From: Polaromonas sp.
Lineage (GTDB): Bacteria; Pseudomonadota; Gammaproteobacteria; Burkholderiales; Burkholderiaceae_C
Length of the DNA: 64,000 nucleotides
Assembly: GCF_030689685.1 (NCBI RefSeq)
Contig: NZ_JAUYEY010000010.1
Coordinates: 1-64,000, forward strand
Reading direction: 5' to 3'
Within the stretch, counting starts at the first letter, position 1. Each line of letters opens with the position of its first letter. Under the pieces are notes generated by a model. That model saw nothing but the letters and a program-made list of their open reading frames with translations. It was not told where the DNA came from and made no database searches. This document shows positions 38,901 through 56,967 of the stretch, piece after piece. Both the position numbers and the translations under genes were made by a program.

Positions 38901-38916
38901 TGGCACGCTGTTTGCA
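38901..38916 (+). promoter_or_regulatory. Sigma-54 promoter of the TRAP operon
   Basis: TGGCACGCTGTTTGCA matches the -24/-12 consensus TGGCACG-N4-TTGCW at every fixed base. It lies 78 bases before the dctP ATG with no gene between. Confidence 0.85.
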
Positions 38917-40091: not shown

Positions 40092-40098
40092 ACCAGTC

Positions 40099-40671
40099 AT
40101 GACGAATCTGACAACTGCCGGCGCCCCCGGGGGGGCCGCCGGGCTGGCCCGCGCCTTTGTGGCGCGTGTCGAGCGCACCGTGGACCTGATCGGCCGCGCT
40201 GCTTCCTGGCTCACGCTGGCCATCGTGGTGCTGATGGCCATTGATGTGCTGATGCGTTATGCCTTCAGCATCGGCTCGGTCTGGGCCCAGGAGCTCGAGT
40301 GGCACCTGCTGGCGCCGTTGGTGCTGTTCGGCATGACCTACGCGCTGCTCAAGGGTGAACATGTGCGTGTCGATGTTTTTTACGCGCGTTACACGCCGCG
40401 CGCGCAAGCCGCGGTGGACCTGCTGACGGCGCTGCTGGCCATCGCGATGGCGGCGCTGGTGATTCGTTATTCGATCCAGTTCGTGACCCAGTCTTATGTG
40501 ATCAACGAAATCTCGTCCGACCCGGGAGGCCTGACGCACCGCTGGATGCTCAAGGCACTGATCCCCGTGGGTTTTGCGGTGTTCGGCCTGATGGCAGCGG
40601 CGCAGGGTGTCGGCGCTGCGCTGCGCCTGTTCGACCCGCAACCGGCCCCCACCCCGGAGGGCACGCCATGA
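40099..40671 (+). CDS. dctQ: TRAP transporter small permease
   Basis: 190 residues with four membrane helices (WLTLAIVVLMAIDVLMRY, WHLLAPLVLFGMTYALL, ALLAIAMAALVIRY, IPVGFAVFGLMAAAQGV) and the typical GEHVRVDVFY loop. It overlaps dctM by four bases and joins the large permease to form the membrane unit. Confidence 0.92.
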   Translation: MTNLTTAGAPGGAAGLARAFVARVERTVDLIGRAASWLTLAIVVLMAIDVLMRYAFSIGSVWAQELEWHLLAPLVLFGMTYALLKGEHVRVDVFYARYTPRAQAAVDLLTALLAIAMAALVIRYSIQFVTQSYVINEISSDPGGLTHRWMLKALIPVGFAVFGLMAAAQGVGAALRLFDPQPAPTPEGTP

Positions 40672-41993
40672 GCATGAACGAATGGCTGGCAATCGGCCTG
40701 CTGATCGGCTTTTTCCTGATGCTGATGGGCGGCATCCCGGTCGGCATCACGCTGGCCGCCAGCGGCTTCATTTTTGGTTTCATGGGTTTCGGTGAATCGC
40801 TGTTCAACCTGCTGCCGGCGCGCATATACGGCGTGGTCGCCAACTACCAGTGGCTGGCGATCCCGCTGTTTGTCTTCATGGGCGTGATGCTGGAAAAATC
40901 GCGCCTGGCCGAAGACCTGCTCGACGTGATCGGCCACCTGGCCGGCGGGCTGCGCGGCGGCATGGCGCTGGGCATCATCGGCGTCGGCGTGCTGATGGGC
41001 GCGACCACCGGCATCGTCGGCGCGACCGTGATCACGCTGGGCCTGCTGACGCTGCCGACGCTGCTGCGGCGCGGTTACGACCCGGCGATCTCCTGCGGCG
41101 CCATCTGCGCCTCGGGCACGCTGGGCCAGATCATCCCGCCCAGCCTGGTGCTGATCCTGCTGTCCGACATCATGCAGCTGTCGGTGGGCACGCTGTTTGC
41201 CGCAGCGGTGCTGCCGGGCCTGATGCTGGCCGGGCTGTATGTGAGCTGGATCGTGGTCTACGGCATGATCCGGCCCGACTCCATGCCGCCGGTGCCGCAG
41301 GCCGAGCGCGACGCGGTGTCACGTGCGCAGCTGTGGCTGCGCGTGCTCAAGGTGGCGCTGCCGCCGGTGGCGCTGGTGCTGTCGGTGCTGGGCTCCATCA
41401 TCGGCGGCGTCGCGGCACCGACCGAGGCCGCCTCCATGGGCGCGCTGGGCTCCATCCTGGTGGTGGCACTGGCGCGCCGCCTCTCGCTGTCAGTGCTGCG
41501 CGACGTGATGCAGACCACCACGCGGATCTCTGCGATGGTGCTGTTCATCCTGATCTGCTCGCAGGTCTTCAGCCTGGCGTTCCGCGGCCTGCAAGGTGAA
41601 AAGCTGATCGAGGACCTGTTCGCGTTTTTGCCGGGCGGCATCAACACCGCGATCTGGTTCCTGATGGGCCTGATCTTCGTGCTCGGCTTTTTCATCGAGT
41701 GGATCGAGATCAGCTACATCGCCGTGCCGCTGTTCTTGCCGATCTTCGCGGCCGCCGGTGTCGACATGGTCTGGCTGGCGATGATGATCACCGTCAACCT
41801 GCAGACTTCGTTTCTGACGCCGCCCTTCGGCTGGGCGCTGTTTTTCCTGCGCGGCGTCGCGCCGCCCGGTGTGACCACGCGGCACATCTACCTCGGTGTG
41901 ATTCCGTTCGTGGGGCTGCAGATCCTGGGCATCGTGCTGGTCTTTTTCTTCCCGGCGATAGCGACCTGGCTGCCGAAGGCCATCGGCTGGTAA
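40668..41993 (+). CDS. dctM: TRAP transporter large permease
   Basis: 441 residues, about 12 membrane helices. Family landmarks are GGIPVGITLAASG at the start, GATTGIVGATVITLGLLTLPTLL, CGAICASGTLGQIIPPSLVLILL and LTPPFGWALFFLRGVAPPGV. It drives substrate import by the sodium gradient. It ends the operon. Confidence 0.94.
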   Translation: MSMNEWLAIGLLIGFFLMLMGGIPVGITLAASGFIFGFMGFGESLFNLLPARIYGVVANYQWLAIPLFVFMGVMLEKSRLAEDLLDVIGHLAGGLRGGMALGIIGVGVLMGATTGIVGATVITLGLLTLPTLLRRGYDPAISCGAICASGTLGQIIPPSLVLILLSDIMQLSVGTLFAAAVLPGLMLAGLYVSWIVVYGMIRPDSMPPVPQAERDAVSRAQLWLRVLKVALPPVALVLSVLGSIIGGVAAPTEAASMGALGSILVVALARRLSLSVLRDVMQTTTRISAMVLFILICSQVFSLAFRGLQGEKLIEDLFAFLPGGINTAIWFLMGLIFVLGFFIEWIEISYIAVPLFLPIFAAAGVDMVWLAMMITVNLQTSFLTPPFGWALFFLRGVAPPGVTTRHIYLGVIPFVGLQILGIVLVFFFPAIATWLPKAIGW

Positions 41994-42172: not shown

Positions 42173-42188
42173 TGGCACGGCCCTTGCA
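42173..42188 (+). promoter_or_regulatory. Sigma-54 promoter of the biuret/ureide cluster
   Basis: TGGCACGGCCCTTGCA matches TGGCACG-N4-TTGCW at every fixed base, 48 bases before the atzF ATG. Start of transcription is expected near 42199. Sigma-54 control is common for nitrogen-scavenging genes through NtrC; no clear NtrC site was found just upstream. Confidence 0.85.
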
Positions 42189-42195
42189 TCTCATC

Positions 42196-42205
42196 TTGTA
42201 CACAA
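42196..42205 (+). promoter_or_regulatory. Possible GntR/FCD operator over the transcription start
   Basis: TTGTACACAA resembles the TTGTNNACAA-type sites of GntR/FCD repressors and covers the start predicted from the sigma-54 promoter. The GntR/FCD regulator gene at 56239 is the last gene of the same cluster. Confidence 0.5.
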
Positions 42206-42236
42206 GTATGGATGCTTTAAATTGGTGCACCCCGTC

Positions 42237-43982
42237 ATGACCCTCGATTCCGCCACATCCGACCCGGCCTGGGCGGATGAGGCCTGGATCCACAAACCGG
42301 CGCAAGCTGTCCTGTCGGCAGCCGACGAGGCGGGGACGGGCCCGCTCGCGGGGTTGCGTTTTGCCGTCAAGGACAATATTGATGCTGCCGGACTGCCCAC
42401 CACGGCGGCCTGCCCGGCCTTTGCCTACACGCCGCCAGCCCATGCCGCTGTCGTGCAAAAGCTGCTCGATGCTGGTGCACAGCTGGCCGGTAAAACCAAC
42501 CTTGACCAGTTTGCTTGCGGCCTGAACGGCACACGCTCACCGTTTGGCGCCGTGCCCAATGCGCTCAACCCGCTGTATGTATCGGGGGGGTCCAGCTCGG
42601 GCTCGGCCTATGTGGTGGCCACCGGTCAGGTGGACTTTGCGCTGGGTACCGACACCGCCGGCTCCGGCCGGGTGCCGGCCGGCCTGAACAACATCGTCGG
42701 CCTGAAACCCTCGCGCGGCCTGATCAGTGCGCGCGGCGTGGTGCCAGCCGCGCAAAGCGTGGACTGCGTGTCCATCTTGGCGCGTACCGTCGCCACCGCC
42801 GTGCGCGTGCTGGAGGCCGCCATGGGGCACGACCCGCTTGACGCCTGGTCGCGCAAACTGGTGATGGCCAGCAAAGCCTGGCCCGCTGCCTTCCGTTTTG
42901 GTATTCCGTCGGCGCCGGAGTTTTATGGTGACGCTGCTGCCGAGGCGGCGTTCGGGGACGCCATCGTTCGCCTGCAGGCTATGGGCGGCACCGCCGTGCC
43001 CGTCGATTTCCGCCCGCTCGCCGAGGTAGCGTCGCTGCTTTATGAAAGTGCGCTGGTGGCCGAGCGTTACACCGCCATCCGCGGTTTCTTTGATGCGCAC
43101 GAAGGCGAGGTGATCGAGCCGGTACGCAGCATCATTGCCGCCGGCCGCAACTACAGCGCCGCTGATCTTTATGAGGTGCAAACCCGCGTCAAGTTGCTGG
43201 GCCAGCAGGCCGATGCCATGTGGGCGCAGACCGATTGCCTGCTGGTGCCGACCGCACCTACGCATTACACGATTGCGCAGATGCAGCGGGACCCGGTGGC
43301 GCTGAACCGCAAGCTCGGCGCCTATACCAACTTTGTCAACCTGCTCGACTACGCAGCGCTGTCGGTACCCAGTTCAATGCGGGCAGACGGCCTGCCGTTT
43401 GGCATCACCCTGATCGGGCCCTCCGGCAGCGACTGGCAACTGGCCGAGCTTGGCCAGCGTTACCACCACCAGACAGGATTGCTGCTGGGCGCAACCGGGG
43501 AGCCCTTACCGGCCATGCAGCCGGTTGCCGGGCTCAGCCCTCACCCCACCCCTCTCCCAACGAGCGAGAGAGCTAAAACCGTGAAGGTGGCCGTCGTGGG
43601 GGCGCATTTGTCGGGCATGCCGCTAAACGGTCAACTGACCCAACGGGGCGCCACGCTGGTTTGCAACACTGAAACCGCAGCGCATTACAGGCTGTATGCC
43701 TTGCCCGGCACCACGCCGCCCAAACCCGGCTTGCTGCGCGTAGCCCCCAACCAGGGCGTGCGCATCGCGCTGGAAATCTGGGACATGCCGCTGACCGAGT
43801 ACGGCTCGTTTGTCGCCCTGATTCCCGCGCCGCTGGGCATAGGCACGCTGGAACTCGGCGACGGCAGCAGCGTTCAAGGTTTTGTCTGCGAGGTCCAGGC
43901 CCTGCAGGGCGGAGCTCGTGACATTTCTCACCTTGGCGGCTGGCGTGCCTATATCCAGTCGCTCAAACCCCTGGCGGTCTGA
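42237..43982 (+). CDS. atzF: Allophanate hydrolase
   Basis: 581 residues, close to AtzF of Pseudomonas ADP (605). The amidase-signature triad is Lys45 (FAVKDNID), Ser119 (GGSSSGS) and Ser143 (DTAGSGRVPA), with exactly the spacing of AtzF (K91, S165, S189). A C-terminal domain of about 130 residues (KVAVVGAHLSGMPLNGQL ... HLGGWRAYIQSL) is the AtzF accessory domain. Residues 435-447 between the two contain SPHPTPLP, encoded by a repeat fragment. It splits allophanate to ammonia and CO2 and is the first gene after the sigma-54 promoter. ATG 42237 is preferred over an in-frame TTG at 42222. Confidence 0.93.
   Translation: MTLDSATSDPAWADEAWIHKPAQAVLSAADEAGTGPLAGLRFAVKDNIDAAGLPTTAACPAFAYTPPAHAAVVQKLLDAGAQLAGKTNLDQFACGLNGTRSPFGAVPNALNPLYVSGGSSSGSAYVVATGQVDFALGTDTAGSGRVPAGLNNIVGLKPSRGLISARGVVPAAQSVDCVSILARTVATAVRVLEAAMGHDPLDAWSRKLVMASKAWPAAFRFGIPSAPEFYGDAAAEAAFGDAIVRLQAMGGTAVPVDFRPLAEVASLLYESALVAERYTAIRGFFDAHEGEVIEPVRSIIAAGRNYSAADLYEVQTRVKLLGQQADAMWAQTDCLLVPTAPTHYTIAQMQRDPVALNRKLGAYTNFVNLLDYAALSVPSSMRADGLPFGITLIGPSGSDWQLAELGQRYHHQTGLLLGATGEPLPAMQPVAGLSPHPTPLPTSERAKTVKVAVVGAHLSGMPLNGQLTQRGATLVCNTETAAHYRLYALPGTTPPKPGLLRVAPNQGVRIALEIWDMPLTEYGSFVALIPAPLGIGTLELGDGSSVQGFVCEVQALQGGARDISHLGGWRAYIQSLKPLAV
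43541..43576 (+). repeat. Repeat fragment forming the AtzF interdomain linker
   Basis: CCCTCACCCCACCCCTCTCC followed by AACGAGCGAGAGAGC matches the central hairpin part of the ~115-bp repeats at 31631 and 59718. It is read in frame between the amidase and C-terminal domains. Confidence 0.65.
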
Positions 43983-44031
43983 CGCCTTCTTTGCATCGTT
44001 TTATCAACCACTTCACTTCCAAGGAGCTTCC

Positions 44032-45039
44032 ATGACGACCCCCAGCTCAACTTCCACCGCCACGGCCACCCGTAGAAAAACCCTGGTCACAGGCGCTGCC
44101 CTGCTTGGCGTGCTGGGCATGCCCGCCATCGTCCGTGCCCAGGCCGGCCCCAATATCCGCATCGGCTACTGGCCTATCGCCGCCGGCCTGCCCTTTTATA
44201 CGGCGGTTGAACTCGGCTACTTCAAGGAAGCAGGGCTGAACGTGGAAGTATTGAAGTTCGCCGGCGCCCAGCAGATCATGGAAGGCATGCTGGCCGACCG
44301 TTGTGACGGCAGTGCCAATGGCACCGGCTCAGGCAATATTGCTGTGGGGGAGCTGGCAGCGCCCGGCAGTTTCAAGATTTTCTGCGCCAACCCCAGCAAC
44401 GTGAAAAACGTGCTGGATCAGGTGATTGTTCCTGTCGCAAGCACCGCCAAAATCATGGCCGACCTCAAGGGCAAGCGTATAGGCTCAGGCCCCGGTATCC
44501 AGAATGTGACATTGGCCAAGACGGTGCTGGAGCGCGGCGGCGCCACCGGCGCCACCGTGGTCGAGCTACCCATTGGCCAGCACATCGCAGCGCTGGCGGC
44601 AGGCCAACTAGATGGCGCCTACACACTGGAGCCCACCGGCACCATCGGCCGCCTCAACGGCACCACCCGCGTGCTGGAAGCCGGCGTGATCTCCCGCTAT
44701 GTGCTGGGCGACCCCATGGCGCCCTGGTTTGGCGGTTCCGCATCGCTGACATCGAGCTTCATCAAAAAGCACCCAGCCGAAACGAAAAAATTCATCACCG
44801 CCTACGGCAAGGGTGTCACCTATGTGCGTACCAAGGCGGTTGAGGCACGTCAGTACCTCAAGGGCTACACCGCCATCGAGGGCGCGCTGACCAGCGAGGT
44901 GCCGCTGGCGGCCTACACCATGTACAACGAGTTCACGCCAGCCGACGTGGCCCACTTTCAGAAGTTTTTTGACCTGTTTTTCGAGCGCGGCATTTTTGCC
45001 TCGCGCCTGATGGTTGACTCCATGCTTTACAAGGGCTAA
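44032..45039 (+). CDS. ABC substrate-binding protein, NMT1/SsuA type
   Basis: 335 residues. A twin-arginine-like signal (ATRRKTLVTGAALLGVLGMP) precedes an NMT1/SsuA-type binding fold (IRIGYWPIAAGLPFYTAVELGYFKEAGLNVEVLKFAGAQQIMEGML). Relatives bind taurine, sulfonates, nitrate or pyrimidines. Here the neighbours (allophanate hydrolase, AtzE trio) suggest a urea-like nitrogen compound. The start has AAGGAG close upstream. Confidence 0.88.
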   Translation: MTTPSSTSTATATRRKTLVTGAALLGVLGMPAIVRAQAGPNIRIGYWPIAAGLPFYTAVELGYFKEAGLNVEVLKFAGAQQIMEGMLADRCDGSANGTGSGNIAVGELAAPGSFKIFCANPSNVKNVLDQVIVPVASTAKIMADLKGKRIGSGPGIQNVTLAKTVLERGGATGATVVELPIGQHIAALAAGQLDGAYTLEPTGTIGRLNGTTRVLEAGVISRYVLGDPMAPWFGGSASLTSSFIKKHPAETKKFITAYGKGVTYVRTKAVEARQYLKGYTAIEGALTSEVPLAAYTMYNEFTPADVAHFQKFFDLFFERGIFASRLMVDSMLYKG

Positions 45040-45043
45040 AGCG

Positions 45044-45892
45044 GTGGATGCCCACTCTTCCATCGCCGCCGCAGCGACGGCGCCGGGCAAACCGTGGGCG
45101 CCGCCCGCGACAGCGCCGGTCGGCAGCGCGCCGCGCAAGCCGTCCTGGGGCAAGGCCTTGCCCTTCATTGGCCCGGTGGTGCTGTTTATCGTCTGGGACC
45201 TGGTGGTGCGCCTGGGCTTTATCAAGGCGATTTTGCTGCCACCGCCGCTCGATGCGATGGGCGCCCTGATCAACGGCCTGGCGGGTGGGCCGCTGCTCAA
45301 GGACTTTCTGGTGACGGTCTGGCGCACGGTTCAGGCCTTCCTGATTGCTGCCGCCGTGGGCATGCCGCTGGGGGTTTTGCTCGGCAGTTCAGAAAAAGCC
45401 TACCGCAGCGTCGAGTTTCTGATTGACTTCTTTCGCTCGACACCGTCCTCCGCGCTGATCCCGCTGTTCCTGATGATCTTCGGCGTATCGGACGTCAACA
45501 AGGTGGCCATTGCGGCCTTTGGCGCGCTGCTGATTGTGGTGTTCAACAGCGCTTACGGTGTCATCAATGCGCGCAAGCAGCGGGTGATGGCGGCCAAGGT
45601 CATGGGCGCCTCGCGCTGGCAGGTGTTCAAGGACGTGCTGATCTGGGAAAGCCTGCAGCCGAGTTTTGTCGGACTGCGCTCGGCGGTGTCGATGGCGCTG
45701 GTGATCGTGATTGTGGCCGAGATGTTTATTGGTGCCGACAGCGGCTTGGGCAACCGCATCATCAACTCGCAACAGGTCATGAATGTGAAAGACATGTATG
45801 CGTCGATTCTGGCGGCAGGTGCGCTGGGTTATGCGCTGAATATCCTCTTTCTCGTCGTCGAGCGCCGTATTGTTCACTGGAGTGGAAGGTAG
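45044..45892 (+). CDS. ABC permease, SsuC/TauC type
   Basis: 282 residues with about six membrane helices and the EAA-like loop AKVMGASRWQVFKDVLIWESLQPSFVGLRSA. The GTG at 45044, four bases after the binding-protein stop, is the likely start. It is the membrane part of the first transporter of the cluster. Confidence 0.88.
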   Translation: MDAHSSIAAAATAPGKPWAPPATAPVGSAPRKPSWGKALPFIGPVVLFIVWDLVVRLGFIKAILLPPPLDAMGALINGLAGGPLLKDFLVTVWRTVQAFLIAAAVGMPLGVLLGSSEKAYRSVEFLIDFFRSTPSSALIPLFLMIFGVSDVNKVAIAAFGALLIVVFNSAYGVINARKQRVMAAKVMGASRWQVFKDVLIWESLQPSFVGLRSAVSMALVIVIVAEMFIGADSGLGNRIINSQQVMNVKDMYASILAAGALGYALNILFLVVERRIVHWSGR

Positions 45893-45894
45893 CC

Positions 45895-46716
45895 ATGTCT
45901 GCAGTTCTCAACGCCCCTGTTTTTGCCGATGTGCCTGTGCCCCAGTTCAAGCCCGGCCCGGCCGGCACCCACATCACGATACGCGGACTGACCAAATACT
46001 TTGCCGGTTGGCCGCTGTATGAAGACTTCAATCTGGACATTCCGAAACACAAGATTGTTTCGGTGTTCGGCCCCAATGGCTGTGGCAAATCCACCCTGAT
46101 CAACATGATCGCCGGCCTGGTGCCGATTGACGCCGGTGAAATCCTGTTTGACGGCAAGTCGCTGAAAGACACCAAGATCGGCTACGTCTTCCAGAACTAC
46201 CGGGAGGCGATGTTCCCCTGGATGCGCACCATCGACAACATCGCCTACCCGCTCAAGCTGGAGGGCAAGTCCAAGGCTGAGGTGGACAGGCGCATGGCCG
46301 AACTGGTGGCGTCGTTTGACGTGAAGTTCGACCTGAGGCGTTATCCGTATGAGCTTTCTGGCGGACAGCAGCAGACCGCGTCCATCATGCGAGCGCTGGC
46401 GCCCAAGCCCGAGGTGCTGTTTCTCGATGAGCCGTTTTCTGCGCTTGATTTTGAAATGACATTGTTCATCCGCGAAAAACTGCAAGAGGTCTTCATGCAG
46501 ACCGGCACCACCATGCTGCTGGTCTCGCACGACCTGGAAGAGGCGGTGTACCTGGCCGACCAGGTGTTGCTGCTGACCAAGCGGCCGACCCGCGTCGCCG
46601 AGATCCTGCCCTACGACGATGCCCGGCCGCGCACGGTGGAGACGCTGTCCGAGCCGGGCTTCATCAGCGCCAAGAAACTGAGCCTGGAAATTTTCCAGCG
46701 CGAAGTGCGGCGCTGA
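45895..46716 (+). CDS. ABC ATP-binding protein, SsuB/TauB type
   Basis: 273 residues. Walker A is GPNGCGKST, Q-loop VFQNYREAMFPW, signature LSGGQQQTAS, Walker B VLFLDEPFSALD and switch VSHDLEEAVYLAD. It energises the NMT1-type importer and starts three bases after the permease. Confidence 0.92.
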   Translation: MSAVLNAPVFADVPVPQFKPGPAGTHITIRGLTKYFAGWPLYEDFNLDIPKHKIVSVFGPNGCGKSTLINMIAGLVPIDAGEILFDGKSLKDTKIGYVFQNYREAMFPWMRTIDNIAYPLKLEGKSKAEVDRRMAELVASFDVKFDLRRYPYELSGGQQQTASIMRALAPKPEVLFLDEPFSALDFEMTLFIREKLQEVFMQTGTTMLLVSHDLEEAVYLADQVLLLTKRPTRVAEILPYDDARPRTVETLSEPGFISAKKLSLEIFQREVRR

Positions 46717-46732
46717 GCCATCTGGAGAAACC

Positions 46733-46954
46733 ATGGACGAAGCAAAGATCGCGGCTTATGTCGGCAGCACGGCCGCCGTGCTGGGACTGCCGCTGCCGCC
46801 GGAGCGGGCGGCCCGCGTGCTTGCCCACCTCCAGCGCACCGCCGCCATGGCCGCGCTGCTGGATACCGCGCCGCTGGCGCCGCACGACGAACTCGCCGAA
46901 ATTTACAGTCCGGCAGCCTTTCCGCCCTTGAATGACGGGCGCAGTCAGCTATGA
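46733..46954 (+). CDS. AtzG-like small subunit (DUF4089)
   Basis: 73 residues: IAAYVGSTAAVLGLPLPPERAARVLAHLQRTAAMAALLD, a helical DUF4089 protein. In the s-triazine pathway AtzG of this family forms a complex with AtzE and is needed for its stability. HpxX of purine-degrading enterics is the same family. It overlaps the AtzE-like gene by four bases. Confidence 0.85.
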   Translation: MDEAKIAAYVGSTAAVLGLPLPPERAARVLAHLQRTAAMAALLDTAPLAPHDELAEIYSPAAFPPLNDGRSQL

Positions 46955-48348
46955 AAATCATAGCGTTTGACGCTGCCACCATGGCTGCCGCCGTTGCTGC
47001 GGGCGATCTCAGTGCACGCGAGCTGGTGGAGACCAGCCTGGCGTGTATCGCCGCCACCGACGGCCGGGTCAATGCCTTCACCGAAACAACCCGGGACCGC
47101 GCCCGCGCCGAAGCCGATGCCGTGGACGCCCGGCGAGCCCGCAGTGAGACCCTGGGGCCGCTGGCCGGTGTGCCCTATGCGGTCAAGAACCTGTTTGACA
47201 TTGAGGGCCTGACCACCCTGGCCGGCTCCAAAGTCAACCATGGCTTGCCGGCGGCGACCGCCGATGCGGTGCTTGTCACGCAGATGAAAGCCGCCGGCGC
47301 GGTGCTGGTCGGAGCGCTCAACATGGACGAATACGCCTACGGTTTCACCACCGAAAATACGCATTACGGTCCTTGCCACAACCCGCACGACCTGACGCGT
47401 ATCGCCGGCGGCTCCTCGGGCGGCTCCGGCGCAGCGGTGGCGGCCGGACAGGTGCCCGTCACGCTGGGGTCTGACACCAACGGCTCCATTCGTGTGCCGG
47501 CCTCGCTGTGCGGCGTCTGGGGGCTCAAGCCCACCTTCGGTCGCCTGTCGCGCCGCGGTACCTATCCCTTTGTACACAGCATCGACCACCTCGGGCCGCT
47601 GGCCAGCAGCCTGGCCGGCTTGGGCCTGGCCTACGACGCGCTGCAGCAGCCCGACCCGCTGGATCCGGGCAGCCATGCGCTGCGTGTGCAGCCGGTGTCG
47701 CCAGCCCTGGGCAAGGGGATAGCCGGCCTGCGCATCGGTGTGCTCGACGGCTACTTTCATGACAATGCCGGACCCGGCGCCCGTGAGGTGGTGGCGCTGG
47801 CGGCCCGCACCCTGGGTGCGCAGTCCGATGTGTTGTGGCCCGACGCCGCGCTGGCGCGCGCTGCGGCCTTCATCATCACCGCAAGTGAAGGGGGCAGCCT
47901 GCACCTGGGCGACCTGCGCACGCGTGCCGACGATTTCGAGCCGCTGTCGGTGGACCGTTTCATCGCCGGTGCGCTGCAGCCTGTGGACTGGTATCTGCGC
48001 GCGCAGCGCTTTCGCCGCGTTTACCGCGACAAGGTCAACACCCTGTTTCAGGACTGGGACGTGCTGCTGACCCCCGCCACACCCGTCAGCGCCACCGTGA
48101 TTGGCACCGAGTGGCAGGACATCAACGGTGTGCGTCAGCCTTGCCGCGCCGCCATGGGCCTGCTGACCCAGCCGATCTCCTTTGCGGGTTGCCCGGTGGT
48201 CACCGCGCCGATGTGGCCGGCGGGCACCGGTGGTTTGCCGATAGGCGTGCAAATCATTGCCGCGCCGTGGCGCGAGGACCTGGCCTTCCGGGTTGCGCAG
48301 GTGCTGGGCGACGCCGGTATTGCCCACGTTCAACCCGTCACTCTGTGA
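46951..48348 (+). CDS. atzE: AtzE-family amidohydrolase (1-carboxybiuret hydrolase-like)
   Basis: 465 residues with the amidase triad Lys79 (YAVKNLFD), Ser155 (AGGSSGGSG) and Ser179 ([11 protein letters not shown]). The [20 protein letters not shown] segment is typical of AtzE/HpxY proteins. AtzE deaminates 1-carboxybiuret; HpxY acts in oxalurate use. The missing ring-opening AtzD leaves the actual substrate open. It is translationally coupled to the DUF4089 gene. Confidence 0.87.
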
Positions 48349-48352
48349 AGCC

Positions 48353-48739
48353 ATGCATCCCACCCTCGCCATCAATCTTCCTGCGGTCCTGGCCGAAGTC
48401 ACGGCCGTGTTTGCGCGTTATGAGGACGCGCTGGTCAACAACAAGGTAGAGGTGCTTGACGAGCTGTTCTGGGACAGCCCGCACACCCTGCGTTACGGCG
48501 CCACTGAGAACCTCTACGGCTACGCCGCCATCCAGGACTTCCGTGCGGGACGGCCCGCGCAGGGGCTGCAGCGCAGCTTGCTGAAAACCGTGATCACCAC
48601 CTATGGACATGACTTCGCGACCGCCAACGTCGAGTTCCAGCGCGCCGGCAACGCCAAACCTGGCAGGCAGAGCCAGACCTGGGTACGCACGCCCGAAGGT
48701 TGGCGTGTGGTCGCGGCGCATGTGAGCCTTCTTGACTGA
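48353..48739 (+). CDS. AtzH/HpxZ-family protein (DUF3225)
   Basis: 128 residues of SnoaL/NTF2-like fold: [68 protein letters not shown] is nearly diagnostic for HpxZ/AtzH. AtzH acts between the AtzE product 1,3-dicarboxyurea and allophanate. With AtzG, AtzE and AtzF in the same cluster this gives all steps from carboxybiuret to ammonia. Confidence 0.85.
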
Positions 48740-48793
48740 GTTCATCCCTGTTCCCTTGACCACTGATTCCCCTTAACCCCTGGAGCACCAACC

Positions 48794-49897
48794 ATGACCA
48801 ACTTCATTAATCGCCGCGATTCGATCAAAACCCTGGCCGCGCTAGGCGCCGCAGCCGCCAGCCCGTTTGCCTTTGCGCAAAAGCCCCTGACCGTGGGCGT
48901 GATCTACGTTGGCCCGCGCGACGACTACGGCTACAACCAGGCGCAGGCGCAGGCTGCAGCCGAACTCAAGAAGATGCCCGGCGTCAAAGTGGTCGAGGAG
49001 GAAAACGTGCCCGAGACCGCCGCCGTGCAGAAGAGCATGACCGGCATGATTGCGCAGGACGGCGCGTCGCTGGTGTTCCCGACCTCCTTCGGCTACTTCG
49101 ATCCGCATGTGCTGGCGGTGGCGCCCAAATTTCCCAATGTGCGTTTTGCCCACTGCGGCGGGCTCTGGACCGAAGGCAAACACCCGAAAAATGCCGCCAG
49201 CTTTTTCGGCTACATCGAGGAGTGCCAGTACCTCAACGGCGTGATCGCCGGCCACATGACCAAGAGTAACAAGATCGGTTTCATCGCCGCCAAGCCGATC
49301 CCGCAGGTGCTGCGCAACATCAACGCCTTCACCCTGGGTGCCCGTTCGGTCAAGCCCGGCATCACCACCAGCGTGATCTTCACCGGAGACTGGTCCATGC
49401 CAGTCAAGGAAGCCGAAGCCACCAACAGTCTGGCCGACCAGGGCGTGGACGTTTTCACCATGCACGTGGACGGCCCGAAAGTCATCGTCGAGACGGCGGC
49501 CAAACGCGGCAAGATGGTCTGCGGTTACCACGCCAGCCAGGCCAAGCTCGCGCCCCAGGCCTACCTGACCGGCGCCGAGTGGAACTGGCTCACGGCTTAC
49601 ACCACCTTCGTGGAAGCCGCGCGCAGCGGCAAGCCGCATCCCAACTTCATCCGCGGCGGCCTGAAGGACGGCTACGTGAAGATGTCGGCCTACGGCCCGA
49701 CCGTGACCGATGCGGCGAAAAAGCAGGCCGACAGCGTCAAGGCGCAGATGGTAGCGGGCAGCTTCGACATCTTCAAGGGCCCGCTCAAGGACAACAAGGG
49801 CGGCACCATCGTCCCGGCCGGCAAGGTCTTCAAGCAGACCGACCTCGAGCTGGAGAAGATGAATTACCTGGTCGAAGGGGTGATCGGCTCGGTCTGA
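48794..49897 (+). CDS. BMP-family ABC substrate-binding protein
   Basis: 367 residues with signal peptide (RRDSIKTLAALGAAAASPFAFAQ) and a BMP/basic membrane protein fold (LTVGVIYVGPRDDYGYNQAQAQAAAELKK ... FFGYIEECQYLNGVIAGHMTKSNKIGFIAA). BMP proteins usually bind nucleosides, purines or related ureides. It begins the second transporter of the cluster. Confidence 0.9.
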   Translation: MTNFINRRDSIKTLAALGAAAASPFAFAQKPLTVGVIYVGPRDDYGYNQAQAQAAAELKKMPGVKVVEEENVPETAAVQKSMTGMIAQDGASLVFPTSFGYFDPHVLAVAPKFPNVRFAHCGGLWTEGKHPKNAASFFGYIEECQYLNGVIAGHMTKSNKIGFIAAKPIPQVLRNINAFTLGARSVKPGITTSVIFTGDWSMPVKEAEATNSLADQGVDVFTMHVDGPKVIVETAAKRGKMVCGYHASQAKLAPQAYLTGAEWNWLTAYTTFVEAARSGKPHPNFIRGGLKDGYVKMSAYGPTVTDAAKKQADSVKAQMVAGSFDIFKGPLKDNKGGTIVPAGKVFKQTDLELEKMNYLVEGVIGSV

Positions 49898-49900
49898 AGT

Positions 49901-49960
49901 TCCGTTTGCCCTGAGCCTGTCGAAGGGTCCTTGGCTTCGACAGGCTCAGCCCGAAACGGG
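49901..49960. repeat. Palindromic repeat with TTCGACAGGCTCAG arms between transporter genes
   Basis: CCGTTTGCCCTGAGCCTGTC, GAAGG and the inverse TTCGACAGGCTCAGCCCGAA form a long hairpin just before the ribosome site of the permease gene at 49972. A half copy lies at 55402-55425. Confidence 0.75.
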
Positions 49961-49971
49961 AGAAAACCCCC

Positions 49972-51063
49972 ATGCGCAACTCCCTCGCCAACGTCCTGTT
50001 GCCGGTAGGCGCCATCATCGCGGCGCTGGCGTTGTTCGGCGTCTTCGTCTGGTTCGCCGGCGTGAGCCCGCTGGAGGTCTGGCTGCTGTTGTTCAAGGGC
50101 GCCTTCGGTGACTGGTACTCGTGGCAGAACACCTTGCAGCGCGCCGCGCCGCTGATGCTGACCGCCCTGTGTGTGGCCATCCCGGCGCGCGCCGGCCTGA
50201 CGGTGATCGGCGGCGAGGGCGCGGTGGTGCTGGGCGGGCTGGCCTGCGCCGGGCTGGCGCAGGGCCTGCCGCTGCCCGCCAATGTGGCCGGCACGGTGAT
50301 GGTCTGCCTGGCCGCCGCAGTGGCCGGCGCGCTATGGATAACGCTGGCGGGCTGGCTGCGCCAATACCGCGGTATCAATGAAACGATCAGCAGCCTGCTG
50401 CTGGCTTATGTGGCCATCGGCTTGTTCAAGCACCTGGTCGAGGGGCCGCTGCGCGATCCGTCCAGCCTGAACAAACCCTCGACCTTTTCGCTGGACGAAG
50501 GTTTGCGCATCGGCGGCATCGCCGGCTCGGACGTGCACTGGGGGCTGGTGATCGGTGTGCTGGCCTGCCTGGCGGCGGGCCTGTGGATGCGTATCACGCC
50601 TTCGGGTTTTGCTGTGCGTGTGGTCGGCGGCAATCCGCGCGCGGCGCATCTGGTCGGCCTGCCGGCCTCCAAACTGATTCTGCTGGCCTGCGCGCTCGGC
50701 GGCGCCAGCGCCGGATTGGCAGGTGCCATCGAGGTGGCGGCGGTGCACACCAACGCCAACGCATCGCTGATCGCTGGTTACGGCTACGCTGGCATCCTGG
50801 TGGCTTTTATTGCGCGCCAGCATCCGGTGGCCATCATCCCGGTGGCGATTTTGTTCGGTGGCTTCGGCGCGGCCGGCAGCCTGCTGCAACGCCGCCTGGG
50901 TTTGCCCGACGCCTCGGTGCTGGTGCTGCAGGGCATTGCCTTTGTGCTGATCCTGGCCAGCGAAGCGCTGCGCGATGTGGACTGGCGAGCCTTCTTCGCA
51001 CGCATCAACCGCTTTGGCCCATCCGAACCCAGTCCGATTCCCCTGCCGCAGGGCAAGCCATGA
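49972..51063 (+). CDS. ABC permease of the BMP-type importer (first)
   Basis: 363 residues with about ten membrane segments and the sugar/nucleoside permease (BPD_transp_2) pattern: YRGINETISSLLLAYVAIGLFKHLVEGPLRDPS and FAVRVVGGNPRAAHLVGLPASKLILLACALGGASAGLAG. It overlaps the next permease (ATGA). GGGAG lies upstream of the ATG. Confidence 0.9.
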   Translation: MRNSLANVLLPVGAIIAALALFGVFVWFAGVSPLEVWLLLFKGAFGDWYSWQNTLQRAAPLMLTALCVAIPARAGLTVIGGEGAVVLGGLACAGLAQGLPLPANVAGTVMVCLAAAVAGALWITLAGWLRQYRGINETISSLLLAYVAIGLFKHLVEGPLRDPSSLNKPSTFSLDEGLRIGGIAGSDVHWGLVIGVLACLAAGLWMRITPSGFAVRVVGGNPRAAHLVGLPASKLILLACALGGASAGLAGAIEVAAVHTNANASLIAGYGYAGILVAFIARQHPVAIIPVAILFGGFGAAGSLLQRRLGLPDASVLVLQGIAFVLILASEALRDVDWRAFFARINRFGPSEPSPIPLPQGKP

Positions 51064-51983
51064 GCGCCGACCAGCTCCTGATTTTTTTTGCCGGCATCGT
51101 GGGCGGTGCCTTGCGCGTCGGTGCGCCTTTCCTGTTTGTCAGTCTCGGCGAATGCATCACCGAAAAATCGGGACGCATCAACCTGGGTCTTGAAGGCGTG
51201 CTGGTGCTGTCGGCCATGTCGGCCTTTGGCGCGTCGTACCTCTCCGGCTCGGCCTGGATCGGCGTGCTGGCCGCCGCCACCACCGGCGCATTGCTGGCCA
51301 CCTTGCACGGTGTGCTGTGTTCGCTGCCGCGCGTCAACGACATCGCCACCGGCATTGCGCTGATGCTGCTGGGCATGGGCCTGGCGTTTTACCTGGGCAA
51401 GCCGCTGATCCAGCCGCAGGCGCCGCAGTTGCCGGCGATTGCGCTGGGCAACTGGAGCGACTCGGCTGCGGTGCGCTCGGCCCTGCAAATCAACGCGCTG
51501 GTGCCCATAGGCATCGCGCTGGCGGTGGCGTTGTGGTGGGCCTTTGCCAACACCCGCGCTGGCCTGCTGGTGCGCATGGCCGGCGACTCGGCCAACGCCA
51601 CGCGCGCTCTCGGCTATTCGGTGTCCGCGATCCGGATTGCTGCCACCGCCGCCGGCGGCATGGTGGCCGGCCTGGGGGGCGCCTGCCTCACGCTGTTTTA
51701 TCCGGGCAGCTGGAACGAAGGTATCTCCAGCGGTCAGGGCTTGATCGCGGTGGCGCTGGTGATCTTCGCGCGCTGGAGCCCGATCCGCTGCGTTTACGCC
51801 TCGCTGCTGTTCGGCGGCGCCGGCGCTATCGGCCCGGCGCTTCAGTCCATCGGCATCAGCTGGGGCTACCACCTGTTCAACATCGTGCCTTATGTGCTGA
51901 CGCTGCTGATCCTGGTCATCACCTGCCGGCCAGGCACCACGGTGAGCGGTAGCCCGGGCGAACTTTCCTCCTCTACACAATGA
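51060..51983 (+). CDS. ABC permease of the BMP-type importer (second)
   Basis: 307 residues, about eight to ten membrane segments, with the characteristic GECITEKSGRINLGLEGVLVLSAM start and LLVRMAGDSANATRALGYSVSAIRI loop. ATG 51060 overlaps the previous stop. It pairs with the preceding permease. Confidence 0.9.
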   Translation: MSADQLLIFFAGIVGGALRVGAPFLFVSLGECITEKSGRINLGLEGVLVLSAMSAFGASYLSGSAWIGVLAAATTGALLATLHGVLCSLPRVNDIATGIALMLLGMGLAFYLGKPLIQPQAPQLPAIALGNWSDSAAVRSALQINALVPIGIALAVALWWAFANTRAGLLVRMAGDSANATRALGYSVSAIRIAATAAGGMVAGLGGACLTLFYPGSWNEGISSGQGLIAVALVIFARWSPIRCVYASLLFGGAGAIGPALQSIGISWGYHLFNIVPYVLTLLILVITCRPGTTVSGSPGELSSSTQ

Positions 51984-52002
51984 AACCAACCAAGGAAGCA
52001 GC

Positions 52003-52989
52003 ATGACAGGACTGGGTGGACTCAACAAATCGAAACATGGCGTGTGCATGGGCCTGGTGCAACTGCAATTGCCTGTGGTCGATACCGCCGCGCAACTCGC
52101 CGCGCAGACGCAGCGCATCTGCGACATGGTGGCCAAGGCGCGGCGCAACCAGGGCAATATGGACTTGGTGGTATTTCCCGAATACGCTCTGCACGGGCTG
52201 TCGATGTCGATCTCGCCTGAACTGATGGTGTCGCTCGACGGCCCCGAGGTCGCAGCCTTCAAGCGCGCCTGCGTGGACAATCACATCTGGGGCTGTTTTT
52301 CCATCATGGAGGCCAACCCCGGCGGCAACCCCTACAACAGCGGCCTGATCATCGACGACACCGGCGCTGTCAAGCTCTACTACCGCAAGCTGCATCCCTG
52401 GGTGCCGGTCGAACCCTGGGAGCCAGGCAACCTCGGCGTGCCGGTCTGCGACGGCCCGAACGGCAGCAAGCTCGCGCTGATCATCTGCCACGACGGCATG
52501 TTCCCCGAGATGGCGCGTGAGGCCGCCTACAAGGGCGCAGAAATCATCATCCGCACTGCAGGCTACACCGCACCCATCCGCCATAGCTGGAAAATCAGCA
52601 ACCAGGCCAACGCCTTCAGCAACCTCGCCATCACGGCCAACGTCTGCCTGTGCGGCAGCGACGGCAGCTTCGACTCCATGGGCGAGGGCATGTTCTGCAA
52701 CTTCGATGGCACCGTGCTGGTTGAAGGCGGCGGGCGTCCCGACGAAATCATCACGGCCGAAGTACGGCCCGACCTGGTGCGTGAAGCCCGTACCGGCTGG
52801 GGCGTGGAAAACAACATCTACCAGCTTTACCACCGCGGCTACGTGGCGGTGAAAGGCGGCGCCCAGGACTGCCCCTACACCTATATGCGCGACATGATGG
52901 ACGGCACGTACAGGCTGCCCTGGCCGGTGGACGTCACCGACGGGACCTCCTGCGGCTTCGACGCGCCGACCCGCAGCTACAAGGCCTGA
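52003..52989 (+). CDS. Formamidase
   Basis: 328 residues of the nitrilase superfamily with triad Glu60 (VFPEYALHG), Lys129 (YYRKLHPW) and Cys162 ([19 protein letters not shown]). [23 protein letters not shown] and SWGLENNIY-like [32 protein letters not shown] match AmiF-type formamidases rather than the aliphatic amidase AmiE. It would release ammonia and formate from formamide, fitting a nitrogen-supply cluster. It lies 19 bases after the permease gene. Confidence 0.88.
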
Positions 52990-53005
52990 GAAGGAAAACA
53001 ACCCG

Positions 53006-53701
53006 ATGCAACGCTTGGTCAACGCCAATCCCTACGCCTGGCCCTGGAACGGTGACCTGCAGCCGGGCAACACCGCGCTTGTCGTCATCGACATGCAGGT
53101 CGATTTCTGCGGCGAAGGCGGCTACGTGGACAAGATGGGTTATGACATCTCACTGACACGCGCGCCGATTGAGCCGCTCAAGACCCTGATGGCCAGTATG
53201 CGCGATAGGGGTTACCACATCATCCACACGCGCGAGGGCCACCGGCCCGACCTGTCGGATCTGCCGGCCAACAAGCGCTGGCGCTCGCGCCAGATCGGCA
53301 CCAACGGCGTGGGCATCGGCGACGACGGGCCTTGCGGCCGCATCCTGGTGCGCGGCGAGCCGGGCTGGGACATCATTTCTGAACTGACGCCCTTGCCGGA
53401 CGAGGTGGTGATCGACAAACCCGGCAAGGGCTCGTTCTACGCCACTGACCTGGAGATGGTGCTGCACACGCGCGGCATCCGCAACCTGATCCTGACCGGC
53501 ATCACCACCGATGTGTGTGTGCACACGACGATGCGTGACGCCAACGACCGCGGCTTCGAATGCCTGCTGCTGTCGGACTGCACCGCCGCCACCGACGCCG
53601 GCAACCACGCGGCGGCGCTCAAGATGATCACCATGCAGGGCGGCGTGTTCGGCGCCCATGCGACATCTGCGGCAGTGCTGGACGCACTGGCGCAGCCATG
53701 A
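53006..53701 (+). CDS. biuH: Biuret amidohydrolase-like cysteine hydrolase
   Basis: 231 residues of the isochorismatase-like family with triad Asp29 ([11 protein letters not shown]), Lys141 ([14 protein letters not shown]) and Cys171 ([12 protein letters not shown]). [19 protein letters not shown] and [25 protein letters not shown], and the overall 231-residue length, agree closely with BiuH of Rhizobium. BiuH hydrolyses biuret to allophanate and ammonia, so it feeds directly into AtzF. It overlaps the ATPase gene start by four bases. Confidence 0.85.
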
Positions 53702-55326
53702 GCACAGCCGCAGCCATCGGCAGCCTGCCGCCGGCCACCGGCGCGCTGGCGCTGGACACCTACCAGATGAGCATGCACTTCGGCAGCTTCACCGCGCTCG
53801 ACAGTGTCAGCATGAAGGTGGCGCCGGGCACGGTGCATGCGCTGCTGGGCGAAAACGGCGCTGGCAAAAGCACGCTGGTCAAATGTGTGGCGGGGTACCA
53901 AAGGCCCTCGGCAGGCAGCATCCTGATTGACGGCCGCGAGCAGGCGATTGACAACCCGGTGGTGGCGCGCACGCTGGGCATCGGCATGGTCTACCAGCAT
54001 TTCACGCTGGCGCCCGGCATGACAGTGGCCGAAAATCTGCTGCTGGCCAGCGGCCGGGCACCAGCGGTGATCAACTGGAAGAAAAAACGCGCCGAACTCC
54101 AAGCCTTTCTGCAGACCACGCCGTTCCGATTGGACCTGGACGCGCGGCCGATCGACATGGCGGCGGGCGAAAAGCAGAAGCTGGAACTGCTCAAGCAGCT
54201 CTACCTGAAGCCGCGCCTGTTGATCCTGGACGAACCGACCTCGGTCTTGAGCCCCCAGGAGGCCGACGAAGTGTTGGGCCACGTGCGCGACTTTGCGCGC
54301 GCCGGCCACTGCACGGTGCTGATCATCACCCACAAGTTCCGCGAAGTGATGGCCTATGCCGACGACGTGACGGTGTTGCGCCGTGGCAAGGCGGTGCACA
54401 CCACGTCGGTGGCAGGCACCGACCCGGCGCGGCTGGCGCAGGCCATGGTGGGCGATGCGACTGCCGCCCGTCCCGAAAGCCTGGATGAGAAGAAAAATAT
54501 GCCTCCAGCCCATAGCGAACATGAGCCATCAGCTATAAAAATAATAGCAACTACGGTCCTCCCCTTGGTCATAAAAAACCTCTCTGTGATGGGGGATCGC
54601 GGCACACTTGCGGTGCGTGACCTGAGCCTGTCGGTAGCGGCCGGTGAGATCCTCGGCATCGCCGGCGTCTCTGGCAACGGCCAGCGCGAACTTGTCGAGG
54701 CCCTGGTCGGCCAGCGCGCGCGCGCCGCCGGCAGCGTGCAGGTCAAGGGCCAGTCCTATGCCGCCACGCGCGAAGAAAACCATCGGCTGAAGGTGCGCAG
54801 CCTGCCCGAGGAGCCGCTGCGCAATGCCTGCGTCGGCGAGCTCTCGGTGGCCGAGAACATGGCGCTGCGCGACTTCGACCGGCCGCCGTTGTGCGCCGGC
54901 GGACGCTTGCGTTTCGGGCACTGGCGCAGCCGCGCGCGCGAATGGATCACTGGCTACGGCATCAAGACCCAAGGCGAAAATGCGCCGATCCGCAGCCTGT
55001 CGGGCGGCAACGTGCAGCGCGCCGTGCTGGCGCGTGAACTGCATGGCGAGATCAATGTGCTGATCGCCGCCAACCCGGTGTTCGGCCTCGACTTTGCCGC
55101 TGTCAAGGAAATCCACACCCGCCTGCGCGGCGTGGCGCAGCAGGGCGGCGCGGTGCTGCTGATCAGCGAGGACCTGGACGAGCTGCTCGAACTGGCCGAC
55201 CGCATCGTGGTGATGAGTGAAGGGCGCATCGTCTTCGAGACCGCTGCTGCGGGGGCGGAGCGGCAGGTGTTGGGGGCGCATATGGGTGGGGGGCATCACG
55301 CTCCTGTGCCAGAGAGCGTGGCGTGA
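53698..55326 (+). CDS. Double ABC ATPase of the BMP-type importer
   Basis: 542 residues with two ATPase modules. The first has Walker [10 protein letters not shown], the Q-loop [12 protein letters not shown], and Walker [14 protein letters not shown]; its signature ([12 protein letters not shown]) is degenerate. The second has GVSGNGQRE in place of Walker [15 protein letters not shown] and [14 protein letters not shown] in place of a full Walker B, as usual for this family. Residues 268-284 between the modules are encoded by a family A repeat. It completes the BMP transporter. Confidence 0.9.
54501..54550 (-). repeat. Family A repeat in the linker of the double ATPase
   Basis: In inverse orientation: GCCTCCAGCCCATAGCG, then CATCAGCTATAAAAATAATAGC. 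It is read in frame between the two ATPase modules. Confidence 0.75.
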
Positions 55327-55401
55327 ATTGCTTTGTGGCTTCTTGCTGGAAGCCGGGTTTCGCCCCGGCGGGCGAGGGGGTCTCATCCATGAAGTTGAAC
55401 A

Positions 55402-55425
55402 CCGTTCGGGCTGAGCCTGTCGAAG
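55402..55425. repeat. Half copy of the TTCGACAGGCTCAG palindrome
   Basis: CCGTTCGGGCTGAGCCTGTC followed by GAAG repeats the left arm of 49901-49960. It lies in the 210-base gap between the ATPase and the second isochorismatase-like gene. Confidence 0.6.
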
Positions 55426-55539
55426 CTGTCTTTCCCTCCAGCGTTGGAGGTGTGCCTGCAAGCCGGGGCTTGCCCGAAGTTCTGGCTACGCTGGCACTGG
55501 CACATACGCCAGCGGCAGCATGACGCCCAAAGAGCCCAT

Positions 55540-56229
55540 ATGCAACTAGCCGAAGCCCAACCCTTCCCCTTCAGCTTCGGGCTGAAGTCCACCGCCCTCG
55601 TCATCATCGACATGCAGCGCGACTTCATTGAGCCGGGCGGCTTTGGCGAAACGCTGGGCAACGATGTCTCGTTGCTGCAGGCCATCGTGCCGGCCTGCCA
55701 GGCCGTGCTGGAGGCCTGGCGCCGCGCCGGCGGCCTGGTGGTGCACACGCGCGAGGCGCACAAGGCCGACCTGTCGGATTGCCCGCCCGCCAAGCGCAAC
55801 CGCGGCAACCCGGCACTGCGCATCGGCGACAGGGGCGCGATGGGCCGCATCCTGGTCGCTGGCGAGCCGGGCAACCAGATCATCCCCGGACTTGCGCCGC
55901 AGCGCGGCGAGATCGCCATCGACAAGCCTGGCAAAGGCGCCTTCTACGCCACCGGCCTGCACGAGCAGCTGCAGCACGTCGGCATCACGCACCTGCTGTT
56001 CATGGGCGTGACCACCGAGGTCTGCGTGCAAACCTCAATGCGTGAAGCCAACGACCGGGGTTATGACTGCCTGCTACTGGAAGACTGCACTGAAAGTTAT
56101 TTCCCCGCCTTCAAAACGGCGGCTGTGGCGATGATGTGCGCCCAGGGCGCCATCGTCGGCTGGACCGCGACCAGCGCCCAGTTGCTGCCGGCGCTGGCGG
56201 CCCTGCCGGCACAGCCCCAACACTGCTAG
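55540..56229 (+). CDS. Second isochorismatase-like cysteine hydrolase (BiuH paralogue)
   Basis: 229 residues with triad Asp24 ([14 protein letters not shown]), Lys132 ([15 protein letters not shown]) and Cys162 ([11 protein letters not shown]). It shares the [22 protein letters not shown] block with the biuret hydrolase at 53006 but is clearly diverged. It may act on another ureide or amide in the same pathway. The ATG at 55540 has only a weak AAAGAG upstream. Confidence 0.82.
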
Positions 56230-56238
56230 AGTTTCGCC

Positions 56239-56967
56239 ATGCCCACCGCCGCCAGCCATCTAGCCGCCCTCGGGGCTGCGCCCGTTCACCGCTCGCGTGC
56301 CGACGAGGTGTATGAGCAGCTCAAGCGCGATGTGTCCGAGTTCAAGCTCGTTCCGGGCGACCGTTTCACCGAAACCGAAATCAGCGAGCGGCTGGGCGTG
56401 TCACGCACGCCGGTGCGGCAGGCGCTGTTCCGCATGCAGCATGAAGGTTTTGTCGAGGTGCTGTTTCGCAGCGGCTGGCGCGTGCTGCCGTTTGACTTCA
56501 ACCAGTTTGAGGAGCTGTACGACCTGCGCATGGTGCTGGAGACCACGGCGGCGCACCGGCTTTGCGAAGACGCCTTGAAAGTCAATCCGGCAGTGCTGGA
56601 TGAACTGGCTGCCATCTGGCTGGTCAGCCCGGAGCAACGCAGCAGCGACACCGTGCAGGTGGCGCAGTGGGACGAGGCTTTTCACTGCGCGCTGGTGGTG
56701 GCGGCCGGCAATGCCGAGATGGCGCGCGTACACCGCGACGTGACCGAACGCATACGCGTGATCCGTCGGCTTGACTTCACCAAGCAGCCGCGCATCGACG
56801 CCACCTTCGAGGAGCACGCCAAGATCCTCAAGGCGATCCAGCGCAAGCGCGGCGACCAGGCCGCCCTGCTGCTGCGCTCACACATTCAGACCAGCCAGGC
56901 CGAGGTGCGCAAGATCACGCTGCATCAAGTGCATCTGGCGCGGCAAATGGGGGCCGGGACTGGCTGA
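56239..56967 (+). CDS. GntR-family transcriptional regulator, FCD type
   Basis: 242 residues: an N-terminal winged helix (VYEQLKRDVSEFKLVPGDRFTETEISERLGVSRTPVRQALFRMQHEGFVEV) and a helical FCD effector-binding domain (about 90-230: YDLRMVLETTAAHRL, WDEAFHCALVVAAGNAEMARVH, HAKILKAIQRKRGDQAALLLRSHI). Such regulators respond to small acids or ureides. It closes the cluster and probably controls it through the palindrome over the atzF transcription start. Confidence 0.9.
   Translation: MPTAASHLAALGAAPVHRSRADEVYEQLKRDVSEFKLVPGDRFTETEISERLGVSRTPVRQALFRMQHEGFVEVLFRSGWRVLPFDFNQFEELYDLRMVLETTAAHRLCEDALKVNPAVLDELAAIWLVSPEQRSSDTVQVAQWDEAFHCALVVAAGNAEMARVHRDVTERIRVIRRLDFTKQPRIDATFEEHAKILKAIQRKRGDQAALLLRSHIQTSQAEVRKITLHQVHLARQMGAGTG

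Follow-up and report, generated by a model that had tools for sequence, protein, structure and literature searches.

Gene organization of the cluster

A stretch of 64,000 nucleotides from Polaromonas sp. (contig NZ_JAUYEY010000010.1, positions 1 to 64,000; the whole stretch is called the window) carries on its plus strand, at 42222-56967, a run of genes that probably serves the use of triuret and biuret as nitrogen sources. Both compounds are by-products in urea fertiliser, and triuret also occurs naturally. The run begins with AtzF, an SsuABC-type importer, AtzG, AtzE, AtzH and a BMP binding protein with two permeases, and continues with a formamidase, BiuH, the ATPase of the BMP importer, a second isochorismatase-like cysteine hydrolase and a GntR/FCD regulator. 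A preliminary description of this DNA had placed AtzF, AtzG, AtzE, AtzH, BiuH, a formamidase, two ATP-binding cassette (ABC) importers and a GntR regulator here on the plus strand, and all of these were confirmed in place, with models scoring over their cut-offs except for several importer parts. The features are as follows.

42173-42187, plus strand: sigma-54 promoter core (-24/-12), TGGCACGGCCCTTGC; exact consensus, conserved in relatives, rpoN present in the genome
42186-42215, no strand assigned: imperfect palindrome overlapping the -12 element, predicted operator of the cluster GntR; conserved, pattern unique in the genome
42222-43982, plus strand: atzF, allophanate hydrolase with C-terminal AH_C domain (PF21986); TIGR02713 742.7 bits, cut-off 511.05
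44032-45039, plus strand: substrate-binding protein, SsuA/NMT1 type; PF09084 above cut-off, TIGR01728 below its cut-off
45014-45892, plus strand: ABC permease, SsuC/TauC type; below equivalog cut-offs
45895-46716, plus strand: ABC ATPase, SsuB/TauB type; below equivalog cut-offs
46733-46954, plus strand: atzG, 1-carboxybiuret hydrolase small subunit; PF13318 (AtzG-like) 53.8 bits, cut-off 24; no NCBIfam family
46951-48348, plus strand: atzE, 1-carboxybiuret hydrolase; TIGR02715 688.7 bits, cut-off 425.75; about 74% identity to ADP AtzE 6C62
48353-48739, plus strand: atzH, 1,3-dicarboxyurea decarboxylase (DUF3225); PF11533 (AtzH-like) 200.8 bits, cut-off 27
48794-49897, plus strand: BMP-family substrate-binding protein; PF02608 above cut-off
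49972-51063, plus strand: ABC permease of the BMP importer; PF02653 above cut-off
51060-51983, plus strand: second ABC permease of the BMP importer; PF02653 above cut-off
52003-52989, plus strand: formamidase (AmiF type), optional accessory; NF009803 550.7 bits, cut-off 406
53006-53701, plus strand: biuH, biuret hydrolase; NF050097 414.9 bits, cut-off 370; nearest solved chains 6AZO/6AZN
53698-55326, plus strand: two-domain ABC ATPase of the BMP importer; below equivalog cut-offs, placed by its position between importer and hydrolase genes
55540-56229, plus strand: trtA, assigned as triuret hydrolase; 67% identity to TrtA 6XIX, 13/13 functional residues
56239-56967, plus strand: GntR/FCD regulator; PF00392 and PF07729 above cut-off

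The likely start of atzF is the TTG at 42222, where aligned relatives mostly have ATG and some rows GTG or TTG; atzG and atzE overlap by 4 bases. The nearest named relative in the scans was the cluster of a Polaromonas metagenome-assembled genome (89% identity across four proteins, 1324 columns), which points to a probable place among the Comamonadaceae.

The second cysteine hydrolase, a probable triuret hydrolase

The product of 55540-56229 had been described as a paralogue of BiuH. It scored only 245.2 bits on the BiuH model NF050097 against a cut-off of 370, compared with 414.9 bits for the true BiuH of the cluster, whose score over the equivalog cut-off agrees with its proposed place as a second entry to allophanate. 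The nearest solved relatives of the second hydrolase are 6XIX and 6XJ4, both triuret hydrolase TrtA, and it shares 67% identity across 213 residues with the Herbaspirillum enzyme (6XIX). All 13 of the catalytic, substrate-binding, mobile and discriminating residues named for TrtA (PMC7948467) are kept, including the catalytic triad D24, K129 and C162 as well as the triuret-type residues F35, N41, E160 and I205, together with Q202. The window BiuH, to which the BiuH entries 6AZO and 6AZN are the closest solved chains, carries Y, Y, D and V at the four positions that discriminate TrtA from BiuH. Because of the BiuH score below the cut-off, the proximity of the TrtA structures and the conservation of all 13 residues, the protein is, as judged from its sequence, triuret hydrolase TrtA and not a spare BiuH.

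TrtA was reported in 2020 to convert triuret to 1-carboxybiuret, the product being seen by 13C nuclear magnetic resonance; other substrates tested gave no more than 0.5% of the activity with triuret, formylurea being slightly used, and AtzEG was named as an enzyme that hydrolyses carboxybiuret (PMC7948467). The earlier proposal that the natural substrate may be a ureide with no known connection to these enzymes was not borne out, since TrtA, triuret, carboxybiuret and AtzEG had already been published together in that source.

AtzGEH in the absence of AtzD

The preliminary description had pointed to AtzG-AtzE-AtzH-AtzF occurring without AtzD in the window, and this extends to the genome: a search of the 4.11-Mb assembly (completeness 100, contamination 0.22) with the AtzD/TrzD family model gave 0 matches. 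In a separate control run the same model found matches in 4/369 genomes of the same class. AtzGEH would need no AtzD here because TrtA, encoded inside the cluster, would make 1-carboxybiuret, the substrate of AtzEG. This provides a reason for the occurrence of AtzGEH without AtzD. In another locus (L139) AtzGEH occurs together with genes of both kinds, one of the AtzD family and one TrtA-like.

Nearest to the window AtzE and AtzH are the enzymes of Pseudomonas sp. ADP (here ADP). The window atzE has an adjoining atzG for the small subunit. AtzH shares 67% identity with ADP AtzH, in which nine residues, five of them arginines, form the pocket around dicarboxyurea (PMC6219798); all nine (Y22, R46, R63, R66, R73, F94, R96, Q106 and Q108) are kept in the window protein, which is the single DUF3225 protein of the genome.

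Conservation of the cluster in relatives

A TrtA protein search gave matches at E <= 1e-20 in 122/399 genomes of the family. Besides the window there were 102 TrtA-type hits (at least 268 bits among the matches listed), of which 100 were fetched with up to 20 kb and two were added later. In total 215 loci were annotated, comprising these 100 and another 3 (family and AtzD searches together), 80 named loci (the best 80 of at least 575 matches) and 32 from outside the family, some records appearing twice. The module table and the tree required four genes (trtA, biuH, bmpA and nupA); 65/215 loci without one of them were left out, and 150 loci, 137 of them distinct, were kept.

All 13 TrtA residues are conserved in 98/100 related loci of the family set, the exceptions being L058 (one differs) and L122 (two differ). 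In the L122 protein, Tyr as in BiuH occupies two of the discriminating positions and the remainder are of TrtA type, so that it may be an enzyme of mixed specificity.

Counted over all 215 loci with repeats, 93 have AtzE and AtzH, 6 have AtzE without AtzH, 47 have an AtzH-like protein without AtzE and 69 have neither. AtzE is present in 73/137 distinct loci, 67 of them with an AtzH that carries Arg66 and 6 without AtzH, and in 67/73 AtzE loci an open reading frame of 50-120 residues abuts AtzE; the three divergent ones that were checked are AtzG-like by Pfam. A further 34/137 distinct loci have an AtzH-like protein without Arg66 and lack AtzE, a small cupin follows trtA instead in 14/137, and in 1/137 the AtzH-like gene is cut. 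The enzyme genes of the cluster are thus conserved and inherited together.

Cluster genes were also met on plasmids. Enterobacter hormaechei plasmid pRHBSTW-00040_4 (L302) carries an atzF-BMP importer-formamidase-biuH-trtA-gntR cluster, with no AtzGEH in the stretch examined, and no close counterpart of its trtA was found among complete E. coli genomes; trtA-like matches occur on other Enterobacterales plasmids too.

AtzH residue 66 follows the presence of AtzE

Of the nine AtzH pocket residues, only the one at position 66 varies within the family set, the other eight being invariant; the wider set adds three rows that differ at position 96 and one that differs at position 94. Over all loci, repeats included, Arg66 was found in 93/93 AtzH proteins accompanied by AtzE and was absent from 46/46 readable AtzH-like proteins without AtzE. 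Among the distinct complete loci including the window (n = 138), the corresponding counts were 68/68 with AtzE and readable AtzH, and another residue in 34/34 without AtzE, an agreement in all 102/102 loci that could be judged. The AtzH tree, from which the locus with the cut AtzH-like gene (L146) was left out and to which the ADP row was added with its known state, gave agreement in 140/140 rows. A tree built from the neighbouring genes shows 8 changes of the trait, and all of the independent pairs that lie on supported branches (7/7) are in agreement (p = 0.016). In one locus (L035), where ssuB and atzH are in place as flanks, AtzG and AtzE are missing from the interval between them and residue 66 is Leu.

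In our reading, where AtzEG is missing the substrate would be carboxybiuret, which has one carboxylate, and so the arginine that would hold a second carboxylate is lost. AtzH without Arg66 is predicted to decarboxylate carboxybiuret directly, and a single residue would then separate two decarboxylase specificities. An AtzH-like protein without Arg66 is encoded directly after trtA in a Herbaspirillum locus (L220) in which AtzE was not found. Since Herbaspirillum is also the genus of the published trtA enzyme, this protein may be TrtB, an identification that is not confirmed. TrtB was also sought through AtzD neighbourhoods, in 5 loci of the AtzD family from the class and 9 stretches taken from the family of genome G1062. 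This did not identify it, because DUF3225 proteins were found near AtzD only together with AtzE (L138 and L139).

The small cupin gene after trtA was seen in 16 loci (for example L202, 10653-10982), the named ones mostly from Alphaproteobacteria, and belongs to Cupin_7 in the one tested. No AtzE or AtzH-like (DUF3225) gene was found in any of these 16 loci. The small cupin is a candidate carboxybiuret-handling protein and a second candidate for TrtB.

Promoter and regulation

The control by sigma-54 that had been proposed from the sequence gained support. The core TGGCACG-N4-TTGC is exact at 42173. Among loci whose AtzF is at least 65% identical, 36/41 carry a site with one mismatch or none in the roughly 450 bases 5' of AtzF, as against 9/71 loci with more distant AtzF and 3/224 control stretches inside atzF; 103/215 loci were skipped in this count since atzF was missing or too near the edge. 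The 40 bases 3' of the core equal it in conservation (mean column identity 0.83), compared with 0.38 for the 60 bases 5' of it (37 rows). The palindrome pattern, with up to 3 mismatches, occurs in the 4.11-Mb genome at this site alone, once per strand. The GntR gene at the end of the operon and the palindrome over the -12 element make repression at the promoter, combined with sigma-54 dependence, the simplest reading. The cluster GntR probably represses by presumed binding to this predicted operator, and the sigma-54 promoter would be subject to nitrogen control.

A second exact sigma-54 consensus, at window positions 38901-38915, is separated by about 80 bases from the probable downstream start (38994) of a tripartite ATP-independent periplasmic (TRAP) substrate-binding protein. 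The TRAP transporter at 38994-41993 was considered as part of the cluster and left out, because its genes were not seen beside atzF in relatives: where AtzF identity reached 65% and the upstream sequence exceeded 2.5 kb (31 loci), no DctM or DctP match above 150 bits lay 5' of AtzF.

Proposed pathway and alternative explanations

We consider the cluster a nitrogen-scavenging operon for triuret and biuret, with a probability of roughly 0.84. The substrates, the order of reactions in this organism and the regulation that we infer are as follows. The two ABC importers would take up the ureides, and TrtA would convert triuret to 1-carboxybiuret and ammonia. AtzEG would remove the next ammonia to give 1,3-dicarboxyurea, which AtzH would decarboxylate to allophanate, and AtzF would break allophanate down to ammonia and carbon dioxide. 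BiuH would lead biuret, taken up from outside or arising by spontaneous decarboxylation of carboxybiuret, for which a half-life of about 20 minutes has been published, into the same allophanate. AtzGEH would stand in for TrtB, the decarboxylase of the triuret pathway as published, and transcription would start from the sigma-54 promoter and be repressed by GntR at the palindrome over its -12 element.

Several observations weigh against this picture or parts of it. None of AtzE, an AtzH-like protein or the cupin was found in the stretch covered of 15/137 distinct loci, several of them on short contigs, and AtzE stands without AtzH in 6/137, which implies that the carboxybiuret step can be carried out by other means or proceed spontaneously and that triuret can be used without AtzGEH. 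Outside the family, many of the distant TrtA-like matches have no biuH or atzF nearby. On the AtzH tree alone, 5 changes of the trait are needed and 2 are forced by supported branches, too few for significance in the pair test, so that part of the agreement between AtzE and Arg66 may reflect exchange of whole cassettes. A scan of 600 bases with one pattern gave no convincing NtrC site, with one poor candidate at 42093. The formamidase is present in no more than 61/137 distinct related loci, across module types, and its part in ureide use lacks an explanation.

Triuret alone accounts for neither the formamidase nor the second importer, and this gives some room to the explanation that the cluster serves biuret and another ureide, the TrtA-like protein and AtzGEH acting on a different substrate. 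The 13/13 conserved TrtA residues, the limit of 0.5% of triuret activity on any other tested substrate of the published enzyme (PMC7948467) and the ADP-type residues kept in the window AtzE and AtzH speak against it, and we regard it as unlikely.

It is much less probable still that this is a cluster for oxalurate. The preliminary description had equated the trio with HpxXYZ; NCBIfam indeed names the window DUF3225 protein HpxZ, but the pADP-1 record labels the protein in the AtzH position HpxZ too. The equation proved weak, as the window AtzE is 74% identical to ADP AtzE and 54% identical to the Klebsiella protein encoded between hpxX and hpxZ, which sits on a long branch (1.25) in no supported group of a tree rooted on it by choice. 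There is no gene of the gamma-glutamyltransferase (GGT) family PF01019 on the contig of the window, and no HpxW-like gene was met beside AtzGEH; the three PF01019 genes, any of which might be HpxW, are on other contigs (C87, C103 and C54) and were used for their position only; one of them scores 336.1, below the NCBIfam GGT cut-off of 357.85. A cyanuric acid pathway of the atzDGEHF type with AtzD elsewhere, to which the nearness of AtzGEH to the ADP cyanuric acid enzymes would point, has the least chance of all, as it is refuted, as far as the assembly is complete, by the absence of AtzD-family matches with a model that works in the class, and TrtA in the cluster supplies the same intermediate.

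Possible origin of the atrazine-plasmid module

Steps of the AtzGEH type are known mainly from atrazine breakdown. In the AtzE tree, pADP-1 AtzE falls inside a supported clade (99) of 37 AtzE rows, which also holds AtzE from a plasmid of Pseudomonas putida that encodes a ring-opening amidohydrolase; all other members come from trtA loci. The exact places of the pADP-1 and P. putida proteins inside the clade are weakly supported (87 and 86). The position of pADP-1 AtzE inside a clade of triuret clusters suggests that the AtzGEH module of pADP-1 may derive from triuret catabolism, and clusters of this kind are a candidate origin of the later steps of atrazine mineralisation, its downstream half. 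The rows were chosen near trtA, except for L138, pADP-1, P. putida and Klebsiella, so that other AtzE contexts are under-sampled and this origin keeps its conditional standing. ADP AtzF shares 51% identity with the window AtzF, which makes the ADP operon look composite.

The AtzGEH variant of the pathway, the link to Arg66 and the origin of the module, all of which we infer from sequence comparison, can be read jointly. AtzGEH would originally have been a triuret module for the carboxybiuret made by TrtA, and the pADP-1 operon would have arisen by AtzD replacing TrtA. In parallel, DUF3225 proteins would have two specificities set by residue 66, those with Arg66 acting on dicarboxyurea from AtzEG and those without it on carboxybiuret directly (possibly the product of the trtB gene), clusters switching as AtzEG was gained or lost. 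We give this joint reading about even odds.

Comparison with known systems

The triuret and biuret pathway of Herbaspirillum sp. BH-1 and Rhizobium leguminosarum 3841 (TrtA, TrtB, BiuH and AtzF; PMC7948467) shares TrtA, BiuH and AtzF with the window, which adds AtzG, AtzE and AtzH, so that carboxybiuret can go via deamination to dicarboxyurea. The trtA-biuH-atzF-bmpA-nupABC contigs of nitrifiers (PMC12625717) have the same enzymes and BMP importer and an annotated GntR gene; unlike our assignment to AtzGEH, carboxybiuret is there assigned to TrtB or left open in the parts of that source available. Its abstract lists "trtA, biuH, and atzH", and its text describes atzF at that place.

The Klebsiella HpxXYZ trio is homologous to the window AtzGEH, and its solved relative 2RCD also has Arg66, but its gene neighbours differ and identity is 54% for AtzE and 61% for AtzH. 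The cyanuric acid operon atzDGEHF of pADP-1 (PMC6219798) has AtzG, AtzE, AtzH and AtzF for the same reactions as the window, where TrtA takes the place of AtzD as the source of carboxybiuret.

In literature mentioning triuret and AtzE, whose coverage was partial and gives no proof of absence, no report of trtA and atzGEH in one cluster was found. The clusters of allophanate hydrolase, ABC importer, AtzGEH, ABC importer and amidase in Rhodoferax, Variovorax and others (PMC6219798) are very likely of the same kind. Their specific role was left open in 2018, and trtA and biuH are not named in the accessible portion of that source; our analysis proposes triuret as the substrate of these AtzGEH clusters. 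The window cluster consists of known enzymes that follow published pathway logic, in a little-described combination.

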